37,671 nucleotides of DNA from a virus. This document shows positions 3,469-19,319 of the stretch, piece after piece. Where the stretch lies: the IMG/VR virus record IMGVR_UViG_3300032164_000034, positions 1-37,671 of that record; one strand, given 5' to 3'. Position numbers and translations under genes: made by a program. The notes beneath the pieces are model-generated. The model had not been told where the DNA came from and searched no databases. It saw only the letters and a program-made list of their open reading frames with translations. Every line of letters starts with the position of its first letter. Position 1 is the stretch's first letter.

Positions 3469-3516
3469 CTAGGTCAGTTTTTCGGTCCGGTGCGTAAAGA
3501 TCCCAACAGAGGATCA

Positions 3517-5976
3517 ATGCCGCCCACCACCGAAAACACAAAGTTCTCCCTCCGCAACTTCTCCGGCAAGCCCACCAAGCACTTCCGCGTCGAGCGGGAT
3601 GACCTGACTGGTCAGGCTCCTGTCGCCAAGAAGACGCCCTCCCACCACATCTTCGTGATCGACCGCAGCGGGTCGATGTACGGGGACATGGAGGCGGTCA
3701 AGTCGATGACCGAGAAGCTCCTCACCCTCGGGGAGTTCGATGACCCGACCCTTCGGGTGTCTCTCATCACCTACTCGTCGCAGGGCGACGTGAAGCTCCA
3801 CTTCCAGCATGTGACGGTCGCGGACGTGATGAAGGCGTCGAGTCCTCACCTGAAGGAGATCCGCTCGATCCGTGCGACGGCCATGACCTGCATCTCGCAG
3901 GGGCTCGTGCTGGCTGAGACGGTGATCGATGACAAGGAGACGACCTGCATCACGCTCCACACCGATGGGTTCGCGAACGACGCTTCCCCGTCGGCAGAGG
4001 CACGCACGATCGCAGCGACCGTCGAGAAGCTCAAGAAGCATCCCAATCTCTTCGTCAACACCATCGCCTACCGCGACTACTGCGACTTCAATCTTCTCTC
4101 CTCGATCTCGAACGGGCTTTCTGGCGCGTGCATCCAGGCGAGGGACATCAAGCAGGTCTACGAGGCGCTCTACAACGCCACGGCTCTGCTCGCTGGTTCG
4201 ATGGCACCGGCCATCGAAGCCTCCAAGGGGAAGGCTGACTACATCGCGTTCATCTCGAAGTCCGCACGCAAGGTGCTGGGCTCGGAGGACAACCTCGTGG
4301 TCCGTGGCCTCAGTTCGACCGACGATCGCTCGGTCTACCGCTACTTCGAGGTCACGGAGGCTGAGTACGCGAAGCTCGCGTGCCCGGAGACGCTCGGCAC
4401 GCCTTCGGCGGGAGCCATCTCTACCTACTGCCGGGCGCAGATCAGCGAGGGCCACCACAACACGGCCAAGTACGCACTCGTCGCCATGAAGAACGAGACG
4501 CTCCTGAACACCCACTACCGGGCGCTCGTCTCGTCGGATGTCGCGGCCTTCGCAGGGGCTGTCGAAGAGACCCTGTTCTCGGAGTCCGAGTACCCACTGG
4601 CTGCGGACTTCGGCCTCGCGGCGAAGGGACCGTCGGTCCTGAAGGTGCTCTCGGTCCTCGACCAGCACGCGAAGTCCCTGAGCGTCAACCTCAAGGTGCT
4701 CGTGTCTGGCTACAAGCGTCGTGGCCTCAAGCGTGTTCCTGGTGTCCGTCTCGAAGACGGCACGCTCCAGCCTCCGACCGTCGAATCCCGCTACCGCACG
4801 GCCAACGAGGAGTGGGTCGCCGTCAATGGGTTCGAGTTGAACCGCAACACGGCGACCGTGAACATGCTCGTCTCGCAGCCGATCGACCTCTACCCGCACA
4901 ACGGGAACGTCCGGGTCGCCTCGGTTGCTGGAATCGACCTCACGCCACTCAAGGCGTTCAACAACTACACGCTCGTGAGCGACGGTTCGTTGAACGTGAA
5001 CCAGATCATGCTCAAGACCTCGGACAAGCGGTGCTTCCGCGAACTGAAGGATCTGGGAGTGGTCACTGGCGAGTACGCTCCTGGGGGTGCTTTCGCGATC
5101 GACTTCTCGAACCTGCCGCTCGTGGACTTCGAGTCGAGCTTCGACTCGGTGGCTCCGGACGAGGTTCGAGATCTTGCGCGGCTCACGGTCCTCTCGAAGA
5201 TCCTCTCGGGCATGTCCAAGGGGGAATCGACGGCGATGACTGCGGAGCAGGTCGCGGAACTCAAGAAGCACTACCTGTCCTCGGCCCTCTACTTCTCGCC
5301 TCCGACGACGAACGAGCAGGCTGACCTCAAGGACGCCATCGCTCTCGGCAAGATCGACACACGGCTCTCGTACAAGATCGACGTGGGCATTCCGGCCATG
5401 ACTTCGGTGACGAAGCTCAAGTCGGGCAACGAGGGTCTTCAGCGTCGATTCACGTCGGCTTTCCACGGGAAGCCGGTCGAGAAGTCGAACCTCTCGGAGA
5501 TCCTTCTTCCCGGCACGACCTGGGACGTGAAGAAGCTCACCGCACGCACGCAACTGGACGAGACAGACACCATCTCGTACCCAATCTACGAGGGCATCCT
5601 CGGGACTGGTGCCACCACCGAAGTCGAGCGCGTCCTCAAGCTCGCCGGACACGAAGACCCCAAGGGCTTCCTCAAGAGCCTCAAGGGCAGCGACCATGAG
5701 GCTGTGGTCGCCTCGGTCGCGGATGCACTCCGGCTCGTGGATGGGATGATCGAGTCCTTCTACGATCGGATCCGCCCCCTCGCCTTCTACATCGGCGCGA
5801 CCGGGCTGGTCCCGGACTCGCTCAATGCGAAGGCGTTCACTTCGGATGCGTTCGCCACGCAGTACACGGATGCCAAGCTCTCGAAGGCCGAGAAGGAGGA
5901 CGGTACGTTCTTCGTCCTGCCGAACGGACTCGTGGTCACGGTGTTCGTGAAGGCTGAGCACTTCACCGTCTCGTGA
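3517..5976 (+). CDS. Large von Willebrand factor A domain protein
   Basis: The protein is 819 residues. ATG 3517 has AGAGGA five bases upstream and is preferred over GTG 3490. Residues about 40-240 form a vWA domain with a complete MIDAS metal site: DRSGS (Asp49, Ser51, Ser53), a threonine in RATAMT (Thr121 or Thr124) and TDG (Asp150). The remaining 580 or so residues have no family I can name; they look mixed alpha/beta and include a conserved-looking block near YPLAADFGLAAKGPS. Such proteins bind metal-dependent partners and often work with a MoxR-type ATPase, but none is visible here. No signal or membrane segment is seen, so the protein is cytosolic or in the virion. The gene is alone between two hairpins, which suggests its own transcript. 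Confidence 0.85.
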   Translation: MPPTTENTKFSLRNFSGKPTKHFRVERDDLTGQAPVAKKTPSHHIFVIDRSGSMYGDMEAVKSMTEKLLTLGEFDDPTLRVSLITYSSQGDVKLHFQHVTVADVMKASSPHLKEIRSIRATAMTCISQGLVLAETVIDDKETTCITLHTDGFANDASPSAEARTIAATVEKLKKHPNLFVNTIAYRDYCDFNLLSSISNGLSGACIQARDIKQVYEALYNATALLAGSMAPAIEASKGKADYIAFISKSARKVLGSEDNLVVRGLSSTDDRSVYRYFEVTEAEYAKLACPETLGTPSAGAISTYCRAQISEGHHNTAKYALVAMKNETLLNTHYRALVSSDVAAFAGAVEETLFSESEYPLAADFGLAAKGPSVLKVLSVLDQHAKSLSVNLKVLVSGYKRRGLKRVPGVRLEDGTLQPPTVESRYRTANEEWVAVNGFELNRNTATVNMLVSQPIDLYPHNGNVRVASVAGIDLTPLKAFNNYTLVSDGSLNVNQIMLKTSDKRCFRELKDLGVVTGEYAPGGAFAIDFSNLPLVDFESSFDSVAPDEVRDLARLTVLSKILSGMSKGESTAMTAEQVAELKKHYLSSALYFSPPTTNEQADLKDAIALGKIDTRLSYKIDVGIPAMTSVTKLKSGNEGLQRRFTSAFHGKPVEKSNLSEILLPGTTWDVKKLTARTQLDETDTISYPIYEGILGTGATTEVERVLKLAGHEDPKGFLKSLKGSDHEAVVASVADALRLVDGMIESFYDRIRPLAFYIGATGLVPDSLNAKAFTSDAFATQYTDAKLSKAEKEDGTFFVLPNGLVVTVFVKAEHFTVS

Positions 5977-7510: not shown

Positions 7511-8884
7511 ATGGTGTGGACCCCGACGACGTACCCACTGCCCCCCATGAACGTCATGGTGGTCAGTCCCTTCGAGAAGGGGATGCTGGACATCCGGTGG
7601 GATGACCCCTCCCTTCTCGGTGGGAACTCTGCGTACAACGTCCTCGGGGTCAACGTGTACCGGTCGGATGCGTCCGACCGGGGACCGTTCCGCAGGATGA
7701 ACTCGTTTCCGGTCGGTGGGACGTTCTTCAGGGACTTCACCGATGTGGCCCTCGTCGCTGATGAGGTCATCCCGTGGGAGACGGGCTGGCAATCTCGCGG
7801 TGACGCTCCGAACGTCCGACGGTGGACGCTCAGGACTCGCTACCCGATGTACAAGCCCCGGACCCAGGGGATTGCGGCGAACTCCCTTGAGGATGTGATC
7901 GTCACGATCAACGGTATCCCGGCTCGGATCCACGAGGTCTTCGGCCCGGCGAACGAGATCACGCTGGGGGATGCGACAGACCTCAATCCTCGGAACGACA
8001 GGCTCGTGTTCGCCCCGTTGCCCACGGGTCCAGCAGACGCGGTGGTAGTCACCTACTACACGCTCAAGAACCTCGTCCAGCCGGGGGTGGACAAGAAGAG
8101 CTTCTACCGGGTGACGACGGTGGCGGAGGACGCGGCCCAGCCGGGGGGTCTGATTGAGACTCCGCTGAACGTGACGATGCCAGCGTCCGACTCGCAGATT
8201 GAGCAACTCGACTACATCTGGCGAGAGGCCATCCGTCGCAACAATTGGATCCTCACTCAAGGCGGAGAGCGCATCAAGCTCTTCGTCCAGAAGGTCGCTG
8301 GGGTCCCATGTGAGTGCCGAGTCGAGGTGGAGTCCCGCATTCGGGCCTACTCGAAGCAGCCCTCGAACCGCTGCAAGATCTGCTACGGGACAGGGTTCGT
8401 TGGGGGCTACGAAGGCCCCTACGACATCATCATGGCCCCGGACGACGCTGAAAAGCGCATCTCACAGGGTTCAACGGGTCGTAGGAAGGAGCACTCCTAC
8501 GAGGTCTTCATGACCTTCACGCCGATCGTTTCCCAGCGTGATTTCGTGATCAAGCAGAACAACGACCGGTACTCGATCGGTCCTGTTCGGCGTCCCACGA
8601 ATCGCGGGAACGTCATGCAACAGCATTTCAATCTCGCGTACCTCGACTCGGCGGACATCCGGTACTCGGTCCCGATTGACGGGTCTATCGCGTCCCCGAA
8701 TCTCCCGTGGCCTCAGACCCGGTACACCTACAATCCTCCTCGGGAGACCTACGACGCACGGGAGGATCCGCCGTGGCCAGTTACGCCGGATGCGGCCCTG
8801 CCGGAAGCAACCGACAAGGACAACGTACCTGATCCGGTTCAGCATCGTTGGCGCACGGGTACAGGCGAAAATCAGAACTACTGA
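7511..8884 (+). CDS. Virion structural protein with FnIII-like and cysteine-knuckle regions
   Basis: The protein is 457 residues. The first 90 or so resemble a fibronectin-III-type beta sandwich (MLDIRWDDPS, then YNVLGVNVYRSD, then FFRDFTD). A middle beta-rich part includes EDVIVTINGIPARIHEVFGP. Near 260-300 a Cys cluster reads C-E-C, then about 19 residues on, C-K-I-C-YGTGFVGGYEGPY, which looks like a zinc knuckle as in other phage neck or connector proteins. The C terminus is Pro/Asp-rich and probably flexible. It is the first of a run of virion-type genes ahead of the tail sheath, so a head-tail neck role is likely. No exact homologue is named here. Confidence 0.7.
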   Translation: MVWTPTTYPLPPMNVMVVSPFEKGMLDIRWDDPSLLGGNSAYNVLGVNVYRSDASDRGPFRRMNSFPVGGTFFRDFTDVALVADEVIPWETGWQSRGDAPNVRRWTLRTRYPMYKPRTQGIAANSLEDVIVTINGIPARIHEVFGPANEITLGDATDLNPRNDRLVFAPLPTGPADAVVVTYYTLKNLVQPGVDKKSFYRVTTVAEDAAQPGGLIETPLNVTMPASDSQIEQLDYIWREAIRRNNWILTQGGERIKLFVQKVAGVPCECRVEVESRIRAYSKQPSNRCKICYGTGFVGGYEGPYDIIMAPDDAEKRISQGSTGRRKEHSYEVFMTFTPIVSQRDFVIKQNNDRYSIGPVRRPTNRGNVMQQHFNLAYLDSADIRYSVPIDGSIASPNLPWPQTRYTYNPPRETYDAREDPPWPVTPDAALPEATDKDNVPDPVQHRWRTGTGENQNY

Positions 8885-8895
8885 GGCACCACGCG

Positions 8896-9567
8896 ATGGT
8901 AAAGAAGACTTCCACACCCCCACCACCGCAGCCCCCTGAAGATGGGGTTGTGCCTGATCCCACAGACAGCCATCCCATCATGCGTGTCAGCAAATGGGTT
9001 GGTGCTCTTGTTGGAATCGTGGGTGGCCTCGCGGTTCTGGTGACTGGGATCTGGAAGGTAGGCGACCTCCTCAATGACCTGGAGGGCGTCCAATCTGACC
9101 TGACGGCTCTCCGTGCTGCAACGGCTGAGGCTTCGTTGGCGGCCCAGCACCGCAGCGAGATTCAAGAGGAGATCCTCTTGAATCTCCGCATCGCAGTCGC
9201 ATCACTGCAAGCCAGGTCGGGCACCCCGGTCGGTGGAAGCGCACCGAGGCCATCTACTGGAACAACACATAGACCCCCTGTAGCGCGTGCGCGTGTGCAT
9301 CCACCAGCATTCGCTCTTGCCACCACGAGTCCAGAGGTTGTTGAGTTGGTGGCTAGTCTGCCACCACTCCCCCCGCCACTCCCACCTTCCCCACCTTCCC
9401 CACCTTCCCCACCTTCTCTCATAGAGCCCCCTGTAGCAGTGTCTGAGATGGTTGTTTCCCCTGAGATGCGACTCGTGGAGAACATGGAGATCCGCGACTA
9501 CGACCACTCAATTGAGACGGCTGATATCGCACTGGAGCGGGCGGAGATTCTTCAAGACCAGCTATGA
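8896..9567 (+). CDS. Single-pass membrane protein with coiled coil and PPS repeats
   Basis: ATG 8896 gives 223 residues. The protein has a Pro-rich cytosolic N terminus and a transmembrane helix at about 34-54 (VGALVGIVGGLAVLVTGIW). A coiled-coil-like segment at about 60-105 (LEGVQSDLTALRAATAEAS) follows. Next come a Pro-rich region with PPS repeats (DNA unit about CCACCTTCC at 9383-9418) and a final helix. TM plus coiled coil plus Pro-rich stalk could suit an inner spanin or a holin-linked protein, but its position among neck genes is unusual. The stop overlaps the next start (ATGA). Confidence 0.65.
   Translation: MVKKTSTPPPPQPPEDGVVPDPTDSHPIMRVSKWVGALVGIVGGLAVLVTGIWKVGDLLNDLEGVQSDLTALRAATAEASLAAQHRSEIQEEILLNLRIAVASLQARSGTPVGGSAPRPSTGTTHRPPVARARVHPPAFALATTSPEVVELVASLPPLPPPLPPSPPSPPSPPSLIEPPVAVSEMVVSPEMRLVENMEIRDYDHSIETADIALERAEILQDQL
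9383..9418 (+). repeat. Short tandem repeat (9-bp unit, PPS codons)
   Basis: About four near-identical copies of a CCACCTTCC unit encode Pro-Pro-Ser repeats inside the membrane-protein gene. Such a tract could vary in copy number by slippage without breaking the frame, because the unit is three codons long. Confidence 0.7.
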
Positions 9568-10154
9568 AGATCCCGGCCCCCCACATCGCTGCCCATCCGA
9601 AGGCACCGCAAGCAAAAGTTCACTCGACCAGAGCGGTACGAAAACCCTCTACCGAGAAGAAGACTGTTCGGAGCCGGTACATCACTCCTTTGGAGCGACA
9701 GGTTGGGGCTGTCCTCGACAAGTCCGACCTCCAGTTCTTCGGTCGTTGCCTCCTCAAGTACATCCGTGAGGAGGCCAAGAAGGACGCGGCCAAGACCCAT
9801 CAGGTGCCCACATCGGAGGAGTTCTACAAGTCCTTCACCTATCAGGTGAAGGACAACACGATTGAGGTGTCCTCAAGCTGGCCCTGGATCGATCTGATCG
9901 TCTTTGGGACCAATGGCCCCTACAAGATGAAGTGGCTCACCCAAGCCCAGGGCGTCTACAAGGTGCCCTTGCGAGGGAAGCAGGGAGAACTGATCATTCG
10001 CTCGACACCCCTCACAACAGACAAGGCTTGGATCCATCCAGGGATCGCCAAGCACAACTTCATCGAGCGGGCGTTTCGTCGGGCCAGGAAAGATTGCGTT
10101 GATCGGTTCATGGACAAGAACATCAGCAAGATCCTGGACAATGCGTTCAAATGA
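9564..10154 (+). CDS. Probable tail-completion / neck protein
   Basis: The protein is 196 residues; the start overlaps the previous stop. The N-terminal 40 residues are basic (Lys/Arg/His-rich). The core has FFGRCLLKYIREEAKKDAAK and SSSWPWIDLIVFGTNGPYKM. Its last third reads KAWIHPGIAKHNFIERAFRRA, a pattern (W-x-HPG followed by FI-x-x-A) found in HK97 gp10-like tail-completion proteins. That and its position between other neck-type genes support a head-tail joining role. The match is from memory of the motif, so moderate. Confidence 0.55.
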   Translation: MKIPAPHIAAHPKAPQAKVHSTRAVRKPSTEKKTVRSRYITPLERQVGAVLDKSDLQFFGRCLLKYIREEAKKDAAKTHQVPTSEEFYKSFTYQVKDNTIEVSSSWPWIDLIVFGTNGPYKMKWLTQAQGVYKVPLRGKQGELIIRSTPLTTDKAWIHPGIAKHNFIERAFRRARKDCVDRFMDKNISKILDNAFK

Positions 10155-10792
10155 GCGAGGTCGAAATCACCTGCCTCGGGGACTCGGCTCACATCCGTGA
10201 TCTCGGCCTGAAGATGACTCGCGGTTCCAAGATCCGCACGAGTCTCTCAGCGATCTCCAATTCCCGTGACCTGGAGGATGCCAAGGCGCGTGGTCTTGTC
10301 TCCGTGAGTGTGATGAAAGCTCAGACCATCAGAAGGGAAGACCTACCCATCATGCCGCCTCCTCCGATCGAACCCTCTGCGAACCACCAGAAGATCGCAC
10401 GGTCCTCCCATCAGTCGGGTTCTGGGAATCCACACACGGAGGGACACCATGACCCACACTCGACCGAGTTGCTGAGGGAACTCCTCCTCGAAATCCGGGG
10501 TCTTCGAGAAGACATGCGGAAACGTCAACCTGAACCCAAGACCGATCAACTGGCGGCAGAAATCGCGAATGCCGTTCGAGGCGCTCTGAGCGGGCTTCAG
10601 TTTGGGTCCGGCGGGGGCACTGTTGCCTCCCTCTCTTCGGAGCCAGAAGAGAGATTCATTCCTCGTGGTATCGTCTCAGGGTCAACGAAGACAGACATTG
10701 AGACAATCAACTCGGTAGCCCCGAGTACCTCAGGTCTGGATGATGCCAGCGGAGCCCTCAGAAATGCCCGCCGTCAGACAAAAGAAGGGTGA
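10151..10792 (+). CDS. Hypothetical protein with a short beta N-terminal domain
   Basis: The protein is 213 residues and overlaps the previous stop (ATGA). The N-terminal 60 residues (VEITCLGDSAHIRDLGLKM, then SRDLEDAKARGLVSVS) form a small domain seen in several phage neck regions, where it is unassigned. The middle is Pro/His/Ser-rich and disordered. A helix follows near 105-140 (LLRELLLEIRGLREDM) and the C terminus is Ser/Thr-rich. It has no cysteine pair or catalytic motif. The gene ends 7 bases before the actin-like gene. Confidence 0.65.
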   Translation: MSEVEITCLGDSAHIRDLGLKMTRGSKIRTSLSAISNSRDLEDAKARGLVSVSVMKAQTIRREDLPIMPPPPIEPSANHQKIARSSHQSGSGNPHTEGHHDPHSTELLRELLLEIRGLREDMRKRQPEPKTDQLAAEIANAVRGALSGLQFGSGGGTVASLSSEPEERFIPRGIVSGSTKTDIETINSVAPSTSGLDDASGALRNARRQTKEG

Positions 10793-10799
10793 CAAGAAC

Positions 10800-11813
10800 A
10801 TGAGCGGGAAACCCGAAACAGTCCGAGGTGTAGGTCTCGACGTAGGCACCATGAATTTCGTGTCCGCACGGCGGACCTCGAAGGGTGTCGAGACTCGTCG
10901 GATGCGGGATGCCTTCCTCGATCTCCCGCCTGAGTCCAAGAAGATGCTCAAGCTTTCGGGTGTCTCCTATGTGGACCGGGAGGATGAGATCCTCATCCTT
11001 GGGGATGCCGCTCTCGACATGGCCAACGTCTTCGGACGAGAAGCCCGTCGTCCGCTCTCTGGCGGCCTCGTGTCCTCCACGGAGGTGGATTCCCTGGAGG
11101 TTCTCGGGCTACTCGTCCGGAACGTCCTCGGGGCTCCTGAGGAACCAGGGGAGCACTGCTACTTCTCGGTCCCGGCGGCTCCGGTCGATTTGGTGGGCCG
11201 AGACGTGGTCTACCACCGTGGCATCTTCGACCGCATCGTGTCCGAGTGTGGGTACACGCCCCACTCTGGAAACGAAGCTATGGCGATCATCTACTCGGAG
11301 ACTGCCAGGGACGGCTTCTCTGGGATTGCCCTCTCGTTCGGTTCGGGCATGACCAACATCGCCCTCTCTGTGAGCACGGTAGAAGGGCTGGCCTTCTCTG
11401 TCGGTCGAGGGGGAGATTGGATCGACTCTGGCGCGGCGAAGTCGGTTGGGTCCACCCAGGCTCGCATGTGCTCGGTCAAGGAAAAGGGCATCGACCTCAA
11501 CAACCCGACTTCCAGGGAGCAAGAGGCACTCGCCTTCTACTACAAGAACCTGGTCGAGTACGTCCTCGACCAGATCGCCCTCCAGTTCAAGGCCGTCGAG
11601 GGTCGGTTCTCGCTTCCGAAGCCCATCCCGATCATCGTCTCCGGGGGCACCTCCTTGGCTGGTGGTTTCCTGGAGTTCTTCACCGGGGTCTTCGAGAAGA
11701 AGCGCAAGAAGTTTCCGATCCAGGTGAGTGAGATTCGGGCAGCCTCGGATCCGCTCAATGCCGTAGCCCACGGGCTACTCGTGCAGGCTCTCCAGGAGTA
11801 CGCTGATGAGTAA
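10800..11813 (+). CDS. Actin/Hsp70-fold ATPase (ParM/MreB-like)
   Basis: From ATG 10800 (AAGAAGGGTGA just upstream) the protein is 337 residues. Three hallmark nucleotide-binding motifs are present in the right order: phosphate-1 GLDVGTMNF (12-20), phosphate-2 LSFGSGMTNIAL (near 178-189) and adenosine SGGTSLAGGF (281-290). A connect-2-like segment (PLNAVAHGLLVQAL) follows near the C terminus. This fold includes ParM, MreB and Hsp70-type proteins. Its length fits a filament-forming actin homologue, but subunit-contact residues cannot be checked here. It lies within the neck-gene cluster and overlaps the next gene by 8 bases, so it is probably co-expressed with virion genes. An upstream in-frame start at 10740 is less likely. 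Confidence 0.8.
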   Translation: MSGKPETVRGVGLDVGTMNFVSARRTSKGVETRRMRDAFLDLPPESKKMLKLSGVSYVDREDEILILGDAALDMANVFGREARRPLSGGLVSSTEVDSLEVLGLLVRNVLGAPEEPGEHCYFSVPAAPVDLVGRDVVYHRGIFDRIVSECGYTPHSGNEAMAIIYSETARDGFSGIALSFGSGMTNIALSVSTVEGLAFSVGRGGDWIDSGAAKSVGSTQARMCSVKEKGIDLNNPTSREQEALAFYYKNLVEYVLDQIALQFKAVEGRFSLPKPIPIIVSGGTSLAGGFLEFFTGVFEKKRKKFPIQVSEIRAASDPLNAVAHGLLVQALQEYADE

Positions 11814-12258
11814 GCAACTTTGGAATCGAGTAGCTGGTTACGACGAGGAGTCCCCTAGAGTCTGCCACAAGGCTTCTGAGAAGGATCCTTCATGCCCATG
11901 CTGGGGTCGTCTTGAACCTATTTCCGAAGACGAGTTCAGTGGAACTCTGAAGTTCTCGTGTCTGGGTCATCGATCTCCCCGAGGGTACCGGGCAAAGCCA
12001 GAGAAAGACCTCTACAAGGAGGCCGCGAAGCAGGCAGCCTCCTTGCCCACTCTGGAAGAGGATCTTGCGGGTGTGTGGGAGTCTACCGACCGTGAAGTAG
12101 ACGAACCGGAGACTATCTTCCTCTTGAGGGATCTCACCCGAGAGGTCGGTCGGCTACGGGCATCTCTCCAGGATATACTGGACCGACAGGTCATCCAGAA
12201 TCAGACTATCAGTGACACACAAGCTCTTGTGAAGTCGGTTCTGAGGGCGAAGGAGTAG
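11806..12258 (+). CDS. Hypothetical protein with Cys/His cluster
   Basis: The protein is 150 residues and its ATG overlaps the end of the actin-like gene by 8 bases. The N-terminal 55 residues contain CHKASEKDPSCPCWG and FSCLGH, four cysteines and a histidine that could bind one zinc ion. A helical C-terminal half has a coiled-coil-like segment near 105-140 (LLRDLTREVGRLRASLQDI). It may be an adaptor that works with the actin-like ATPase, a guess from the overlap only. AGGAGTAGG at its end serves as the ribosome site of the next gene. Confidence 0.6.
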   Translation: MSKQLWNRVAGYDEESPRVCHKASEKDPSCPCWGRLEPISEDEFSGTLKFSCLGHRSPRGYRAKPEKDLYKEAAKQAASLPTLEEDLAGVWESTDREVDEPETIFLLRDLTREVGRLRASLQDILDRQVIQNQTISDTQALVKSVLRAKE

Positions 12259-12259
12259 G

Positions 12260-13384
12260 GTGTATTTTCACCTGACAGAAGCGACTCGGCGGAGGCTCAT
12301 CAAGGAGCTTCGTGCCTACTGGTCTCTGCATCCCAGGTACCAGGACATCATCGACAACATCCAGGGCAAATTTTCCTTCGAGGAACGCCCTCAGTACGGC
12401 ATCATCCTCAAGACGGGTTCTGCCACCAAGGTCCAGTTCTCACCTGACAACTTCATGGGGACTGTGCAGAGCTATGTGGCCCTAGCCAAGATCCCAGGAT
12501 ACGCAGGGTTGTCGGTAGATTGGGTCAGGGAGGACTCCCTCGCGATCCAAGCAAACGGGGGTAGGTTCCCATCTCAGAGTGGGGTCTACTACTGCGAGAT
12601 GGTCACGGAAGACACGTTCTTCGTGGACCCTCTGCTCGATGTCAGGGACGAGCGGATCCTGATGACCACCCCCTCGGAAGGGACCCTTCAGGGGATCCCC
12701 TATGCCGGGAGCCTACGGATCTTCGAGATGCCCAGCGGGCGTCTCCTCCGTCCGGGCGTGAACTACACGATCGGCGCAGACCAGGTCACCGTCTATCTGG
12801 CTGTGCCACTAGCCAACGGACAGGCGCTCTCGGCTGACTACCGGGTCGCTGGGGTGACTACCGGACCCTGGAAGGTGGAGGCCCAGTCGGGCCTTAGTCA
12901 TGTGATCCCAGGGGTGGTGTTGGTCTTCGGGCGGCGCTACCAGAAGGGCGACCGTTGGGCAATCATCGTCTCCCAAATCCGGGAGCCTGCGTACATGGAG
13001 TACGGCGGGAAGTGGGAACTGGGCATCGACATCGACATCATCGCCCGTGACGTGAACGCCCAGGTCGAGATTGCGGATCAGACGGCCATGTTTCTGTGGG
13101 CGATCCTGCGACCCAACCTCGTTGACGAGGGGCTCGACATCATGGATGTGTCGATGGGCGGGGAGTCAGAGGAGATCTACGACGAGAACGGAGACGACTA
13201 CTTCTACAACTCCGCAATCTCGATGACCATCCAAGTAGATTGGTTTCTCCATGTCCCGATTCTCCCCAGGATTTTGTCCTACCAGGAGGATGTGAAGGGG
13301 CTGCCGCAAGACCTCTCCTTGTCGCCGTTCAAGGATCCGTTCTTCTCAGGGAAGTTCGAGCACTTCGAGAAGACCCTCGGTTGA
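12260..13384 (+). CDS. Virion structural protein, probable neck/tail-terminator
   Basis: The protein is 374 residues from GTG 12260, one base after the previous stop. The N terminus has a helical segment (IKELRAYWSLHPRYQDI), then beta-rich regions (QYGIILKTGSATKVQFSPDN, then GYAGLSVDWVREDSLAI). A second part near 215-300 (ELGIDIDIIARDVNAQVEI) and a final SISMTIQVDWFLHVPILPRI-like stretch are consistent with a beta-sandwich head-tail or tail-terminator protein of large myoviruses. Two genes farther on is the tail sheath. The exact role is inferred from place and shape. Confidence 0.65.
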   Translation: MYFHLTEATRRRLIKELRAYWSLHPRYQDIIDNIQGKFSFEERPQYGIILKTGSATKVQFSPDNFMGTVQSYVALAKIPGYAGLSVDWVREDSLAIQANGGRFPSQSGVYYCEMVTEDTFFVDPLLDVRDERILMTTPSEGTLQGIPYAGSLRIFEMPSGRLLRPGVNYTIGADQVTVYLAVPLANGQALSADYRVAGVTTGPWKVEAQSGLSHVIPGVVLVFGRRYQKGDRWAIIVSQIREPAYMEYGGKWELGIDIDIIARDVNAQVEIADQTAMFLWAILRPNLVDEGLDIMDVSMGGESEEIYDENGDDYFYNSAISMTIQVDWFLHVPILPRILSYQEDVKGLPQDLSLSPFKDPFFSGKFEHFEKTLG

Positions 13385-13441: not shown

Positions 13442-13882
13442 ATCCCTGTCTTTCGATACCAGTGCTCGTCCTGCGGATTGAACTTCTCCGCCCGCGTCGC
13501 CTCGGCTTTGTCTGCGGTGAAGTGTTCTTCCTGCGGGTCAGAAGCTGGGCAAGACCTCCCCCGGTCCTTCTCGGTGAGCACCAGCGTCCCCACGCAGGGG
13601 TTGTCGGCTCCTGCCACTGGGCTGTCCTCTCACGATTACGTCTATGACCGGGTGGTGGGTGAGGACTCCAAGGCCAAGTGGTCCCAGATAGCGGCCCGCC
13701 AGAAGGACAAGGTTCAGGTCATCGAGGAAAAGGGCGTCACCGGGTTCGACCTCACCCGCAAGCCAGACGGCACCTACGGGGTGATGACCCCCAAACAGAG
13801 GGCAGCCTCTGAGAGATCTCGAAAGTTCCACTTCAAGATGGATGCCCACGGCAGAGCCATGAAGGCGCAGAAGGCCACCTGA
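13442..13882 (+). CDS. FmdB-like zinc-ribbon protein with probable ATC start
   Basis: The protein is 146 residues if read from ATC 13442. It begins (I/M)PVFRYQCSSCG, then VKCSSCGS, giving Cys8, Cys11, Cys28 and Cys31, the four ligands of an FmdB-type zinc ribbon whose members usually start MPxYxYxC. GAGAGGAGAGG (13424-13434) lies 7 bases before the ATC, ideal for translation from it. The first ordinary start, TTG 13478, would cut off half of the zinc site and has no good ribosome site. The rest is basic, with TPKQRAASERSRKF near the end. The gene lies just before the tail sheath; a nucleic-acid- or assembly-related role is possible but unproven. Confidence 0.65.
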   Translation: MPVFRYQCSSCGLNFSARVASALSAVKCSSCGSEAGQDLPRSFSVSTSVPTQGLSAPATGLSSHDYVYDRVVGEDSKAKWSQIAARQKDKVQVIEEKGVTGFDLTRKPDGTYGVMTPKQRAASERSRKFHFKMDAHGRAMKAQKAT

Positions 13883-14009: not shown

Positions 14010-17000
14010 ATGCCGACTCTTCTTCGTGGTGGCTACGCCCCGCCCGGTGTCTACACCCAGACCTTCTTCGGCGTCCCCCCGACCCCGACCCCGATTCCCG
14101 ATCGCCTCCCTGTGTTCATCGGGACTGGCACGGAGATCCTCTCCCGGTCGAACCTCCCCGTCGTGCGTGGCTCCTCCAGCACCATCGACCAACAGGTCGT
14201 GGATGAGGACGAGGCAGGGCGTGCAGTCACCAGCGTCTCTCCGAGTGGGGTCGTCTCCATCGGGGCGTTCGATGGGGTGATCACGAAGTTCCAGGTCCGT
14301 AATCTTCCGATCGTCTCGGGCGATGGTACGGGCACTCCGGCGGTGGACACGAGCGCAGTCTCGTGCCGCGTCAATGGCTTCCCCACCGTGGTCCTCGGCC
14401 TCGATGCAGCCAAGGGCATCGTGGAGATTGCAGTCGCCCCACAGGTGACTGACATCGTTCGCTGCACCTACTTCTTCGACCGCTCGGACACCCTGACGAC
14501 CGACGACGTGTCGGATCAGATCACCCAGGATGCAGCCGTCATCGACGGCCTCGCGGGTCAGACCTTCGCCTTCGTCCTCGGGGCGAACGACGTGTTCTCA
14601 ATCTCGGTGGACGGACTCGCGTTCGTGAACATCGTGATGCCCTCGTCCGCCCCCTCGGTGAGCGGCGCAGTCGTGGCAGCGACGATCAATGGTGCGGCGG
14701 GCATCGGTTCGCTCGTCGCCTCCACCTACGTCAACAACCTCGCCCAGGTCTGCATCCGTCTCTCGGCGGACAAGTCGATCGTCATCGGGACCGGGACGGC
14801 GAACACGACCCTCGGGTTCACGCCGAACACGGCGACTGCTCGCAACCGGGTCTTCTACACATTCCAGGGTCCGATCGTGGACGGCACGGGCGGCGGCATC
14901 ACGACCACCGACCCGTCGCGCATCGTCGTTCTCGTGGACGGCATCCAGGTCATCCCGACGGCGGTCAACGGATCGGCTCGGAGCTTCACGCTCCCCTACG
15001 CCCCGGCCCTCGGCTCCACGGTCACGGTCCGCTACTTCTTCAACACCTGGCAGGACACGTTCGACTACCTCGCGAACATCAACGTCACTGCCATCACGCG
15101 GGTCGCCCTCACGCCGGATGGTTCGACGGCGGGCACGTTCCTCCAGGGCGTCAGCTACGTCCTGAAGGACGATGTGATCGTCTGGGGAACGGCGGCGCTC
15201 ATCTCTGCTGCTACCCACACAGAGGGCGGGGCGACCCTCGGCACGTCTCAGATCCAGGCGATGCTGGTGGACAACCAGATCTTCCTGGCCCCCTGCACCC
15301 CGACCGTGAACAGCACGGGTCCGGTCTCGGTCGAGAGCCGCACGGTGTTCCAGCTTCCGTATCAGCCCACGACGGGCAACGGTCGCGGCAACCCGCTCGG
15401 GTCGGCTCTGTACCAGGTCGTCTCCAACGGGAGGATTGACCTCCCGACGACTCGCCCCGACCTCATCACGGCATACTGGGGCTTCGGCGTCCAGGATGCG
15501 ATCGACCGTGGTCCGGTGACGGTCCTCAAGGTGGACAGCACCACCTCGCAGATCACGCTCAGCCCGATGGTCCCGGAAGGAGCCTCGGTCTTCGCGAGCT
15601 TCTACTACAACACGCTCGTGGACATGGCGAACATCGGCACGAGCAGCGCCTACACGCTGACGTGCGTGACAGCGGGTCCGGGAGGCATCGGCACCTATTC
15701 GCTCAAGGGCGGTTCGGGTGCATCCCTCTTCGGAGCAAGCCTCACCGCCAAGGGCACTGACCTCACGACCGTAGAGATCGTGTTCCCGTCGGGCTCGGAG
15801 TTCTTCCCCGATGCTCGCGTCGAGGGTGCCGCTCCGGTCGAGGAGACTGTTCAGGTCGAGTTTGCCACGTCGGATCTGACTCCGGCGCGGTTCACGAACT
15901 TCGGCCCCGGTCCCTACTACACGATCGACAACACCTCGGATCGTCTCCGGGTGACCTTCGATGGTGTTCCTGCCTTCACCGGCATCGCCGCTGGTGTTGA
16001 TCTCTCGTCACCCACGGCAGGCACCCGCGCAGGAGCCTTCGCTCACCTTCTCGGTGAGGAGATCAAGTACACAGCGGCCTCAGGCGAGACGACCTACGAC
16101 CTCACCTCGGGTGTGGACGACGCGATCAATCTCCTCGTGGATGGCGTCCCCCTCGCTGCGGCGACGGGCACTGTCCTCGGTGCGACGGCGGCCAACTTCG
16201 TCTCGGCCATCAACGCATCGGCTGTCCTGGCAGGCAACGAGCCCTACTACAACGGCGCGGGCACCTTCACGGCCTTCACGGTCACTGCTGGTGAGTACGA
16301 CCAACTCACCCTCCACTACACCGGAGACGTGAACGGACCGTCGGGCAACCAGACCATCACCCTCGCGCCTGGCGCGTATGTGTCGGTCGGTGCGCTCGTC
16401 GCCCAGATCAACACGCAGCTTGCGACGATCAACGGCGCAGGCTTCCTCCTCGGGTCGGTCACGGCCTCGGCACTCGCCTCGGGCCAGGTCCGGTTCACCC
16501 TCGCGATCGGCACGGCCTCGGACCTCCTGACGTTCGGCGGCATCCCGCTCAACACCGAGACGGTCACGATCGACGGCAAGGTCTACACGTTCCAGACCGT
16601 TCTCACGAACGTGGATGGAAACGTCCTCATCGGCGGTTCGGCTGCCGCCTCGCTCAGCAACCTCATCGCGGCGATCACGCTCGGTGCAGGGGCTGGCGTC
16701 ACCTACGCAGCGGCGACGACACTCCACCCGACGGTCACAGCGGTTGCTGGAACTGTCGTCGGTACGATGCTCGCGAAGGCGAAGGCCAGCGGGTCTGCCG
16801 GGAACACCATCGCGGTCAGCACGACGGTCACACTCGGTGTGTGGGCTACAGCCACGCTCCTCGGCGGTGACGACGCTGGCTACCTGGAGTTCATCACGAA
16901 CGCGCTGCTCGCACGGGACTTTGCAGTTCTGGCAGGCATCGACACGGACACGGCGACGAACAGCAATCAGACCAAGATCTACAACGGTCCGATCGCTCGT

Positions 17001-19319
17001 CGCTACACGGTGGCGACAACGGCTGGTCGTCTCCCCTACGACCGCATCCTTCTCAGGAACCGCATCTTCCCAGGTGGGAACTCGCTGTCCTACGTCTCGA
17101 CCCTCGCACAGACCGGGATCACCCTTCAGGGCGGCACCGGCATGGTGAAGTCCGGACTCATCAACGGTGAGACGGCTGAGGCTGTCTTCGGTGCGAACGT
17201 CAAGGCACCGACGATCATCGCCTACACTGGATGGGCGGATGGTCAGGTCGCCACGGCCACCTACGGTGATGCGCGTGACGGTCAGGCGAACGTCATCTTC
17301 TACGACGGCACAGACCCGTCGAACCCGGCGAACAACCTCCTGACCTTCACGGCGGGTGGCGGCCTCGTCACGGTGATCTTCACTGCCTCGACTCTGGGCA
17401 CGGCTACGGCCTTCGGTCCGGTGACGATCGCTGGCTCGGTCCTCGGTCAGATCAACGCAGCCATCGTGGCTGCGGGGCTCAGCGCGACCGTCCAGGTTCT
17501 CCAGGAGGGTGCGGCTGCTCGTCTCGTCGGAGGCGGCGTCAACGCGGCTGCAACCCTGGTGATCGGTGCTGGAAGCTCGAACGACACCCTCGGCTTCGCT
17601 GAGGACGACTCGGCGGCTCCTACGCCTGTCTCCACCCGTCAGTTCATCTCGGCCCTCATGGGTCACACAGCAGCGGCGTCCTTCGTGGCGTCGATGCTCA
17701 GCTACGCACTCCCTGTCGCTGGCTACTTCCCGGCCCGTGCCCTCGCTGGCATCCAGAAGGACTCGACGGGCAACGTCTTCCTGTACTTCCAGAGCCAGAC
17801 GCTCGGAGTCGGGTCGAGCATCAACTTCGACAACGCGACCACGAACAACTCTCTCGTGACGGGGACGCTGCTTCTCATCACGTCGGCGGATGGATCGTCT
17901 GGTGAGGCCGCAATCAACGGCTTCTTCGTCACGTCCTCGAATCCGAGTCTCGGTTCTGGTTCGGCGGACACCTCGGTCTTCAACTCGGGTGTCGGTCAGG
18001 ACGGCGTGGTCGGTCAGACCTACCGGGATGAAGTGACCGGGTTGGTCTTCACGATCCTTCCGCGTGCGGGTGGGCTCCCCTACCCGACAGGCGCGAACGC
18101 AACCCTCACCTTCAGGGTGAGCAAGACGTTCACGACGGATGGCAACATCCCGACCCTCGCAATCCCCGGACTCGAACTCACGGTCACGAACACCTCGCTG
18201 GTGGTCGTGGGTGACACGGCGTTCATCGAGACCTTCAAGAAGACGGGCGATGAGCCCACCATCGGGGAGATCTACTACGTCAGCTACCTCTTCCGGAAGC
18301 AGGACTTCTCCCCGAAGTTCTTCTCGCGGCTGTCGGAGGTCGTGGCCGAGTACGGACCGGTGAGCCCGGACAACCCGCTCTCCCTCGCGGCCTTCCTCGC
18401 GTTCCTGAACGGGTCGTCAATCATCGCGACCTACCAGGTTCTCAAGGAGCCTGGTTCGTCTCAGGCGAGCGAGCAGTCGTACCTCAACGCTCTCGTGGAC
18501 CTTGAAGGCGACTCGCTTCCGGGCAACATCTCGCCCACGGTCCTCGTGTTCCTGACCCCGGCTACGCCGGTCCTGACGAAGTTCACGGCCATCCACTGTG
18601 ATGTGCAGTCGAGCATCCGCTACCGCGCAGAGCGCACCGCAATCTTCGGATTCGCATCGGGTACCCAGCCCTCGCAGGCTGGTGCTCTTGCTCAGGCGAC
18701 TGGCGCAACGCGCGTTCGGTTCGTCTACCCCGACATCGCCACGATCACCCTCACCGACGTTCTCGGGGCGTCCAAGACGTACCTCGTGGACGGTCGGTAC
18801 ATCGCAGGAGCGGTTGCCTCCTCGACCACGGCTCCGAGCATCGACTCGGCAACTCCGTGGACGGGTCGGCTGCTCAGTGGCTTCACGACCCTCGCTCGGT
18901 CGCTCGACGCGGTGGAAGCGAACCAGGTCGCCTCGCGTGGTGTCACCGTGATCGAGGAGCGTCTTCCGTTCATGCGGATCCGCCACGGCCTCACCAGCGA
19001 CATGAGCAACGCGCTCACGAAGCTGCCGACGGTCATCCAGATCGCAGACGACATGCAGCGTCGCGCTCGTGCGGTGCTCGATGCCTTCATCGGCGTCAAG
19101 TTCCTCCCGCAGATCCTCGGGCAGATCGAGGGGCAACTCTCCGAGATGTTCAAGCGCGCTGTCCAGGGACAGATCATCACGAGCTTCACCGGAGTCAGCG
19201 TCATCCTCGACCCTGAGGATCCCACGGCTGTCCTGGTCGAAGCCTTCTACATCCCGGTCTTCCCGCTGCTCTACATCCAGTTGACCTTCCGCGTCTCGTC
19301 GCAGTCGGCAACGGTCTGA
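14010..19319 (+). CDS. Giant tail sheath protein
   Basis: The protein is 1769 residues, against about 650-700 in T4 and phiKZ. The N terminus (GGYAPPGVYTQTFFG, then LPVFIGTG) is a typical sheath opening. Residues about 1410-1769 hold the conserved contractile core: PTIGEIYYVSYLFRKQDFSP, PTVLVFLTP, GRYIAGAVASS, then ERLPFMRIRHGLTSDM and a final IPVFPLLYIQLTFRVSSQ strand. Between them are over 1,300 residues of beta-rich modules, including TVTIDGKVYTFQT (near 850) with downstream ASLSNLIAAI, a module shared with other phage tail proteins. IVIGTGTANTTLGF (near 260) and LVIGAGSSNDTLGF (near 1185) are two copies of another. A strong AGGAG precedes the ATG, and the tail tube gene lies two genes on. 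Confidence 0.92.
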   Translation: MPTLLRGGYAPPGVYTQTFFGVPPTPTPIPDRLPVFIGTGTEILSRSNLPVVRGSSSTIDQQVVDEDEAGRAVTSVSPSGVVSIGAFDGVITKFQVRNLPIVSGDGTGTPAVDTSAVSCRVNGFPTVVLGLDAAKGIVEIAVAPQVTDIVRCTYFFDRSDTLTTDDVSDQITQDAAVIDGLAGQTFAFVLGANDVFSISVDGLAFVNIVMPSSAPSVSGAVVAATINGAAGIGSLVASTYVNNLAQVCIRLSADKSIVIGTGTANTTLGFTPNTATARNRVFYTFQGPIVDGTGGGITTTDPSRIVVLVDGIQVIPTAVNGSARSFTLPYAPALGSTVTVRYFFNTWQDTFDYLANINVTAITRVALTPDGSTAGTFLQGVSYVLKDDVIVWGTAALISAATHTEGGATLGTSQIQAMLVDNQIFLAPCTPTVNSTGPVSVESRTVFQLPYQPTTGNGRGNPLGSALYQVVSNGRIDLPTTRPDLITAYWGFGVQDAIDRGPVTVLKVDSTTSQITLSPMVPEGASVFASFYYNTLVDMANIGTSSAYTLTCVTAGPGGIGTYSLKGGSGASLFGASLTAKGTDLTTVEIVFPSGSEFFPDARVEGAAPVEETVQVEFATSDLTPARFTNFGPGPYYTIDNTSDRLRVTFDGVPAFTGIAAGVDLSSPTAGTRAGAFAHLLGEEIKYTAASGETTYDLTSGVDDAINLLVDGVPLAAATGTVLGATAANFVSAINASAVLAGNEPYYNGAGTFTAFTVTAGEYDQLTLHYTGDVNGPSGNQTITLAPGAYVSVGALVAQINTQLATINGAGFLLGSVTASALASGQVRFTLAIGTASDLLTFGGIPLNTETVTIDGKVYTFQTVLTNVDGNVLIGGSAAASLSNLIAAITLGAGAGVTYAAATTLHPTVTAVAGTVVGTMLAKAKASGSAGNTIAVSTTVTLGVWATATLLGGDDAGYLEFITNALLARDFAVLAGIDTDTATNSNQTKIYNGPIARRYTVATTAGRLPYDRILLRNRIFPGGNSLSYVSTLAQTGITLQGGTGMVKSGLINGETAEAVFGANVKAPTIIAYTGWADGQVATATYGDARDGQANVIFYDGTDPSNPANNLLTFTAGGGLVTVIFTASTLGTATAFGPVTIAGSVLGQINAAIVAAGLSATVQVLQEGAAARLVGGGVNAAATLVIGAGSSNDTLGFAEDDSAAPTPVSTRQFISALMGHTAAASFVASMLSYALPVAGYFPARALAGIQKDSTGNVFLYFQSQTLGVGSSINFDNATTNNSLVTGTLLLITSADGSSGEAAINGFFVTSSNPSLGSGSADTSVFNSGVGQDGVVGQTYRDEVTGLVFTILPRAGGLPYPTGANATLTFRVSKTFTTDGNIPTLAIPGLELTVTNTSLVVVGDTAFIETFKKTGDEPTIGEIYYVSYLFRKQDFSPKFFSRLSEVVAEYGPVSPDNPLSLAAFLAFLNGSSIIATYQVLKEPGSSQASEQSYLNALVDLEGDSLPGNISPTVLVFLTPATPVLTKFTAIHCDVQSSIRYRAERTAIFGFASGTQPSQAGALAQATGATRVRFVYPDIATITLTDVLGASKTYLVDGRYIAGAVASSTTAPSIDSATPWTGRLLSGFTTLARSLDAVEANQVASRGVTVIEERLPFMRIRHGLTSDMSNALTKLPTVIQIADDMQRRARAVLDAFIGVKFLPQILGQIEGQLSEMFKRAVQGQIITSFTGVSVILDPEDPTAVLVEAFYIPVFPLLYIQLTFRVSSQSATV

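Follow-up and report, generated by a model that had tools for sequence, protein, structure and literature searches.

What does an actin-like ATPase do among the genes that join the head of a phage to its tail? The question arises from the window analysed here, the whole 37,671 nucleotides of IMG/VR record IMGVR_UViG_3300032164_000034, in which such a gene is located amid the head, neck and tail genes listed in Table 1. The first-pass annotation had described its product as a 337-residue protein that overlaps its downstream neighbour, and both points stand: the reading frame is intact, and its stop codon (11811-11813) overlaps the next ATG (11806) by 8 bp. A second in-frame ATG is present at 10740. 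We preferred the start at 10800 because it follows the upstream stop codon (10790-10792) and matches the start in near relatives. A chance ORF was rejected on the basis of the Pfam Volactin score of 238 bits, the 49 relatives found in an IMG/VR scan, and the codon differences from the actin gene of locus L004 (102 synonymous and 14 non-synonymous).

Table 1. Positions of the actin gene, its partner and the neighbouring head, neck and tail genes in the window
Feature	Coordinates	Strand	Length	Basis or sequence
g10, conserved head/neck structural protein, possibly head closure	7511..8884	+	457 aa	PHROG 1004, synteny
g12, probable tail-completion/neck protein	9564..10154	+	196 aa	phrog_5, conserved upstream neighbour
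g13, adaptor-like partner gene just upstream of actin	10151..10792	+	213 aa	
Conserved g13 C-terminal tail, candidate actin-docking motif	10655..10789	+		FIPRGIV...GLDDASGALRNARR
Volactin-family actin-like ATPase gene	10800..11813	+	337 aa	Pfam PF25216, AF2 model, MamK match
g15, small downstream gene, 8-bp overlap with actin gene	11806..12258	+		
g16, neck (tail-terminator-like) protein with large insertion	12260..13384	+		AF2 and Foldseek
g17, conserved small gene between neck gene and sheath	13478..13882	+		
Giant tail sheath protein, sheath domain near C-terminus	14010..19319	+	1769 aa	phrog_2839

The protein matches the Pfam Volactin model (PF25216) over profile positions 3-321 of 321 (E 1.8e-70; cut-off 35 bits) and, judged by its sequence, is a member of this family. 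The volactin of Haloferax volcanii (VolA, HVO_2015) forms dynamic filaments in vivo and aids the rod-to-disk change (PMC10869688). The phage protein shares 37% identity over 326 residues with the homologue from Haloferax massiliensis and 39% with Haloarcula plasmid proteins, and these haloarchaeal alignments cover about 96%. Because a PHROGs search returned no family for the actin and a PDB search with its single sequence gave no useful match, profiles were required. A profile of 50 members matched MamK among the PDB sequences (1.5e-8), followed by FtsA and MreB, and EutJ also matches. The AF2 model (pLDDT 92.5, pTM 0.90) has the two-domain fold of actins with an ATP cleft, and its matches to MamK, MreB and actin span residues 7-337. 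The top structural match is the MamK filament (Foldseek E 4e-15; Z 29.2 over 294 residues, 2.8 Å), and further matches include the BeeR filament (Z 27.4), MreB (about 26) and DnaK (24.7). The predicted structure thus indicates an actin fold with filament-forming actins as the best matches. The proposed actin-fold ATPase is confirmed in its fold by the Pfam and structure matches, and the structural comparison suggested with it, run here in part, groups the protein with MamK, BeeR and MreB and not with the sugar kinases, which were rejected. We also rejected an Hsp70 identity, as there is no C-terminal substrate-binding domain and the actin fold extends to the last residue, 337. A search for the ParM-type StbA_N domain gave no match anywhere, with the controls equally blank. 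MamK, the magnetosome actin, is the closest match in solved fold and in PDB sequence, but the identity is about 19%, and MamK is encoded in the magnetosome operon whereas the phage actin has a neck and tail gene context.

The phosphate-1 (GLDVGTMN, residues 12-19), phosphate-2 (SFGSGMTN, 179-186) and adenosine (VSGGTSLAGGF, 280-290) motifs are all found, in agreement with the earlier reading except that the Asp expected in phosphate-2 is Ser179. In an alignment of 50 family members, D14, G16, T17, E159, S179, G181, G183, N186, G205, D206, D209, G282 and G283 are invariant, and these include the residues typical of the actin superfamily in phosphate-1 (D14, G16, T17), the adenosine motif (G282, G283) and the catalytic helix (E159). 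By our reading of the profile alignment, E159 falls on Glu143 of MamK and S179 on Asp161, the residue that MamK keeps. The D161A and E143A mutants of MamK form static filaments (PMC5059902). Because the haloarchaeal sequences are among the 50 members that carry the Ser, we regard it as characteristic of volactins in general and not as a peculiarity of the phage proteins; and as the namesake is dynamic, the change from Asp to Ser is compatible with turnover.

The first-pass annotation had also placed the gene among virion genes, and this setting is borne out by the sheath, with a phrog_2839 match of E 8.5e-25 at 18120-19316, and by the fold of g16 (AF2 pLDDT 81), to which, in a Foldseek search, the necks of phages 812, E217, Bas63, XM1 and Pam3 come closest. 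The matches of g10 and g12 are weaker: PHROG 1004, a virion (head/packaging) structural protein, is hit by 7 of 19 members of the g10 family (best E 9.9e-6), and phrog_5 ("tail completion or Neck1") by one of 16 members of the g12 family (E 9.5e-4). As profile searches of g10, g12 and g16 against the PDB gave nothing significant, g16 was placed as a neck protein because of its fold alone. At about three times the usual size, the sheath has a big N-terminal expansion, and the sheath frames of relatives are about 1450-1800 aa long. Upstream of the neck block, positions 3490-5976 encode an 828-aa protein that by eye resembles von Willebrand A and is conserved in L004, L005, L007, L010 and L051.

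A simple gene caller misses some genes in loci of high GC content, and counts were therefore based on six-frame searches where possible. When the window genes were searched by tblastn, at least one of g10, g12, g16 and the sheath was kept near the actin gene in 49 of 51 phage loci, the exceptions being L047 (a 4.3 kb contig) and L052 (30% identity). The usual order is g10, g12, g13, actin, g16, g17 and sheath; g15 is not conserved in most relatives. Of the 17 long records, 16 encode a sheath that belongs to the same PHROG. This neighbourhood is kept across actin identities of 46-100%, and in one clade (L018, L022-L024) only g12, g13 and actin stay joined, with the downstream tail genes elsewhere. 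A role in virion assembly or head-tail joining had been hinted at before; the conserved head-tail neighbourhood agrees with it, and contact with a virion part is at present our inference. Since the neighbourhood is real and conserved, a virion-assembly role is favoured over plasmid-like segregation on these genomic grounds.

The actin is encoded on IMG/VR contigs of up to 497 kb, matches also come from two records of uncultured huge phages (485 and 595 kb), and each of the 17 long records searched contains a single copy. Cellular relatives were taken as the best 80 of 367 from genome contigs; they include haloarchaea, Planctomycetota, Magnetococcales, Neomarinimicrobiota, Acidobacteria, Chloroflexi, Patescibacteria and others. 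A midpoint-rooted maximum-likelihood tree groups 30 phage sequences in a single clade (support 100/96); the nearest clade is centred on Magnetococcales, and L047 and L052 are located outside the phage clade on long branches. Two deviating records were seen. One contig, listed as part of a Thermoplasmata MAG (L056), encodes an actin of the phage type (71% identity) and is probably a mis-binned virus, and an actin ORF with a proline- and acid-rich C-terminal extension of 100 aa (L031:2050-3372) is probably a fusion with the next gene.

A gap of 7 bp separates the end of g13, the next gene upstream, from the actin start; like the volactin family, g13 was missing from the first reading of the locus. 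Among the 48 phage loci that extend far enough upstream, 47 have a g13 homologue, the exception being L052 (six loci, counted by hand, are cut too short). It adjoins the actin gene in most loci and is within 2.6 kb in all 47, with an insert of 0.4-2.5 kb between the two genes in about a dozen. The homologues fall into four sequence clusters with one common build, namely an N-terminal domain of about 55 aa, a variable low-complexity or coiled linker, and a conserved C-terminal tail with the pattern [FY][IV]P..IV ... D(L/V)..A..ALK..RK (in short FIP...ALxxxRK). Mean pairwise identity in the family is 0.23 for the N-domain, 0.16 for the linker and 0.33 for the tail. Neither the N-domain nor the rest of g13 matches a recognised DNA-binding family. 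Recurrence of the N-domain in other virion proteins near the locus was considered and rejected, as it was seen in g13 only. At the gene level, g13 thus provides the co-encoded adaptor-like partner that characterises AlpA/AlpC and ParM/ParR.

A profile made from the phage tails only was searched against 17,832 six-frame ORFs of the 80 cellular volactin loci. The top matches are mostly the gene adjoining volactin: of the ten best-ranked ORFs, nine stop 45-160 bp short of volactin, and the remaining one (L133) starts just after it. Most are haloarchaeal DUF7139 proteins, the family being read from representative members, and another top match is an unrelated gene on a Clostridia contig (L073). 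We then dropped each lineage from the training set and searched its own loci, using the lineages in which the tail had been seen by eye, and in each of the eight the adaptor-type gene ranked first. This gene took the first 12 places among 2,545 ORFs in haloarchaea, ranks 1 and 2 of 1,482 in Magnetococcales and of 50 in Neomarinimicrobiota, the first three of 194 in c66 (downstream of the actin in two of these loci), and rank 1 of 54, 10 and 126 in L075, L087 and L082, respectively. In the phage lineage it was also the best, and the first five loci have it at least one gene further upstream. We estimate the chance of the top ORF being the upstream neighbour, as a rough product that assumes independent lineages, at about 1e-12. 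The scores per sequence are weak (best E mostly 0.0005-0.05), and no tail was found in the Patescibacteria gas-vesicle clusters, the Planctomycetota fusions, L088/L090, L047 or L052.

By eye, the N-terminal parts of the tail-bearing proteins differ, with membrane hairpins in Magnetococcales and haloarchaea and a small domain in phages, as would be expected if a single actin were served by several cargo adaptors. The phage system resembles that of VolA in belonging to the same Pfam family over its full length, in the same phosphate-2 Ser, and in a co-encoded partner with a related tail, the DUF7139 gene. It differs in that VolA is a haloarchaeal cell-shape protein with a neighbour-encoded partner that has a membrane domain, whereas the phage gene is located in a neck module and its partner looks soluble. 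The DUF7139 membrane protein, which adjoins volactin upstream in haloarchaea (L126:8966-9865) and downstream in L133 (10177-11250), is a candidate membrane anchor of volactin. In Magnetococcales (L080, L081, L083, L084, L086, L089 and L091), the two genes before volactin carry the tail and encode a FimV_N-type protein and a 140-aa membrane-hairpin protein.

Other cellular loci have different arrangements. Volactin genes are contained in gas-vesicle clusters (GvpA-type, GvpK, GvpL/F and AAA ATPases) of Patescibacteria, Chloroflexi and one unclassified bacterium (L079, L082, L094, L097 and L101), often after a winged-helix-like gene; a brief literature search turned up no earlier description of an actin at such loci. 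In Planctomycetota (L058:8930-10984, L059-L072), volactin is fused, as the C-terminal domain, to a long, acidic and repetitive N-part in proteins of 670-940 aa. We rejected the idea that these fusions are adaptor and actin in one chain, because the N-parts look disordered and acidic and lack the tail.

Taken together, the data suggest that huge tailed phages use a private actin-like cytoskeleton during virion assembly. The specific form that we propose, a late filament system of the MamK/volactin type tethered by the g13 adaptor to virion-assembly cargo, is in our judgement evenly poised between right and wrong. From the observed fold, family, single copy and synteny, we infer that the actin would polymerise in the late phase of infection by a huge, contractile-tailed phage. 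From the partner gene and the shared tail, g13 would be a dedicated adaptor, the FIP-helix tail of which may dock on an actin monomer or a filament end while its small N-terminal domain would hold the cargo. The likeliest cargo would be a virion intermediate (the capsid neck, the tail, or their meeting site), because the actin and g13 genes lie inside the run of neck genes and are probably expressed together with them. In a large cell, the filament could then collect the heads and tails that are to be joined, position them or deliver them. Several observations go against this model. A Ser replaces the Asp whose mutation in MamK (D161) abolishes dynamics, although haloarchaeal volactins share it; several volactin lineages have no tail and the tail scores are weak; the downstream tail genes are displaced in the L018, L022-L024 clade; and a place among virion genes can reflect late expression only.

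Positioning of the genome or replication site, in the manner of AlpC/AlpA or PhuZ, is an unlikely explanation but one to be taken seriously. The filament would be real, g13 would bind phage DNA or a compartment, and the place among neck genes would set late timing. The well-studied phage cytoskeletons PhuZ, TubZ and AlpC position DNA, and AlpA is likewise an adaptor encoded upstream of its actin gene. By analogy, AlpA/AlpC of the Corynebacterium prophage CGP3 may be taken as the closest experimentally studied case in which a phage actin and its adaptor share an operon, AlpC being likened here by description and not by sequence. As an example of an adaptor gene upstream of a phage actin gene, it also speaks for the adaptor role of g13 in our own model. 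However, AlpA and AlpC are an early gene pair and AlpA binds DNA (PMC4446434), whereas the g13-actin pair is locked in the virion block in nearly every locus and the g13 N-domain has no recognised DNA-binding family. PhuZ and TubZ are also cytoskeletons of large phages, but they have the tubulin fold. No Pfam-recognisable tubulin was found in the 17 huge-phage records that carry phage volactin, so a substitute cytoskeleton would make sense, but a divergent PhuZ may escape the Pfam model.

We consider it more doubtful still that the protein is a non-filament actin-fold ATPase, acting as a neck assembly clamp, a chaperone or a minor virion part with the g13 tail as its substrate peptide. The models for such a role are peptide docking of the PilM-PilN kind and the closterovirus HSP70h, an ATPase of the actin/Hsp70 fold that is a component of the virion tail. 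HSP70h appears in BFVD among the Hsp70-fold structural matches, EutJ and FtsA match too, the change from Asp to Ser could slow hydrolysis, and the gene is positioned exactly between the g12 and g16 neck genes. On the other hand, filament actins outrank Hsp70 (Z 29 versus 24.7), the C-terminal domain of HSP70h, a protein of plant RNA viruses, is absent from the phage actin, which has no substrate-binding domain, and the best-studied cellular relative forms dynamic filaments. Finally, the presence of volactins in cells of several phyla would allow a host-interference gene or passenger, that is, a cellular copy that interferes with the host cytoskeleton or takes its place and is located in the structural operon by chance, but the single deep phage clade, the strict synteny and a partner domain specific to phages point to a long-established function in phages and make this very improbable.

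Returning to the assembly filament, its adaptor would also fit a broader picture that we offer tentatively and hold to be rather less than probable: archaeal, bacterial and huge-phage volactins may be one modular cytoskeleton, with a common actin and swappable adaptors that share a C-terminal docking tail. The N-domain would choose the cargo, namely the membrane in cells, the gas-vesicle machinery in some bacteria, and the virion neck in phages. In an incomplete literature search, we found no paper that joins volactin with phages and none that mentions DUF7139, and the volactin studies found there concern haloarchaea only; the main text of a huge-phage survey reports tubulins and not actins.

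Phage cytoskeletons are known for the movement of DNA, and the assembly of very large virions is an open question. In phages of 200-500 kb, the constant place of an actin gene in the module for head-tail joining suggests that the protein serves virion assembly, and the shared adaptor tail is a simple, testable handle on how volactins connect to cargo. If the broader picture of one modular cytoskeleton is true, its phage version would be the first actin-like cytoskeleton dedicated to virion assembly and not to moving DNA.
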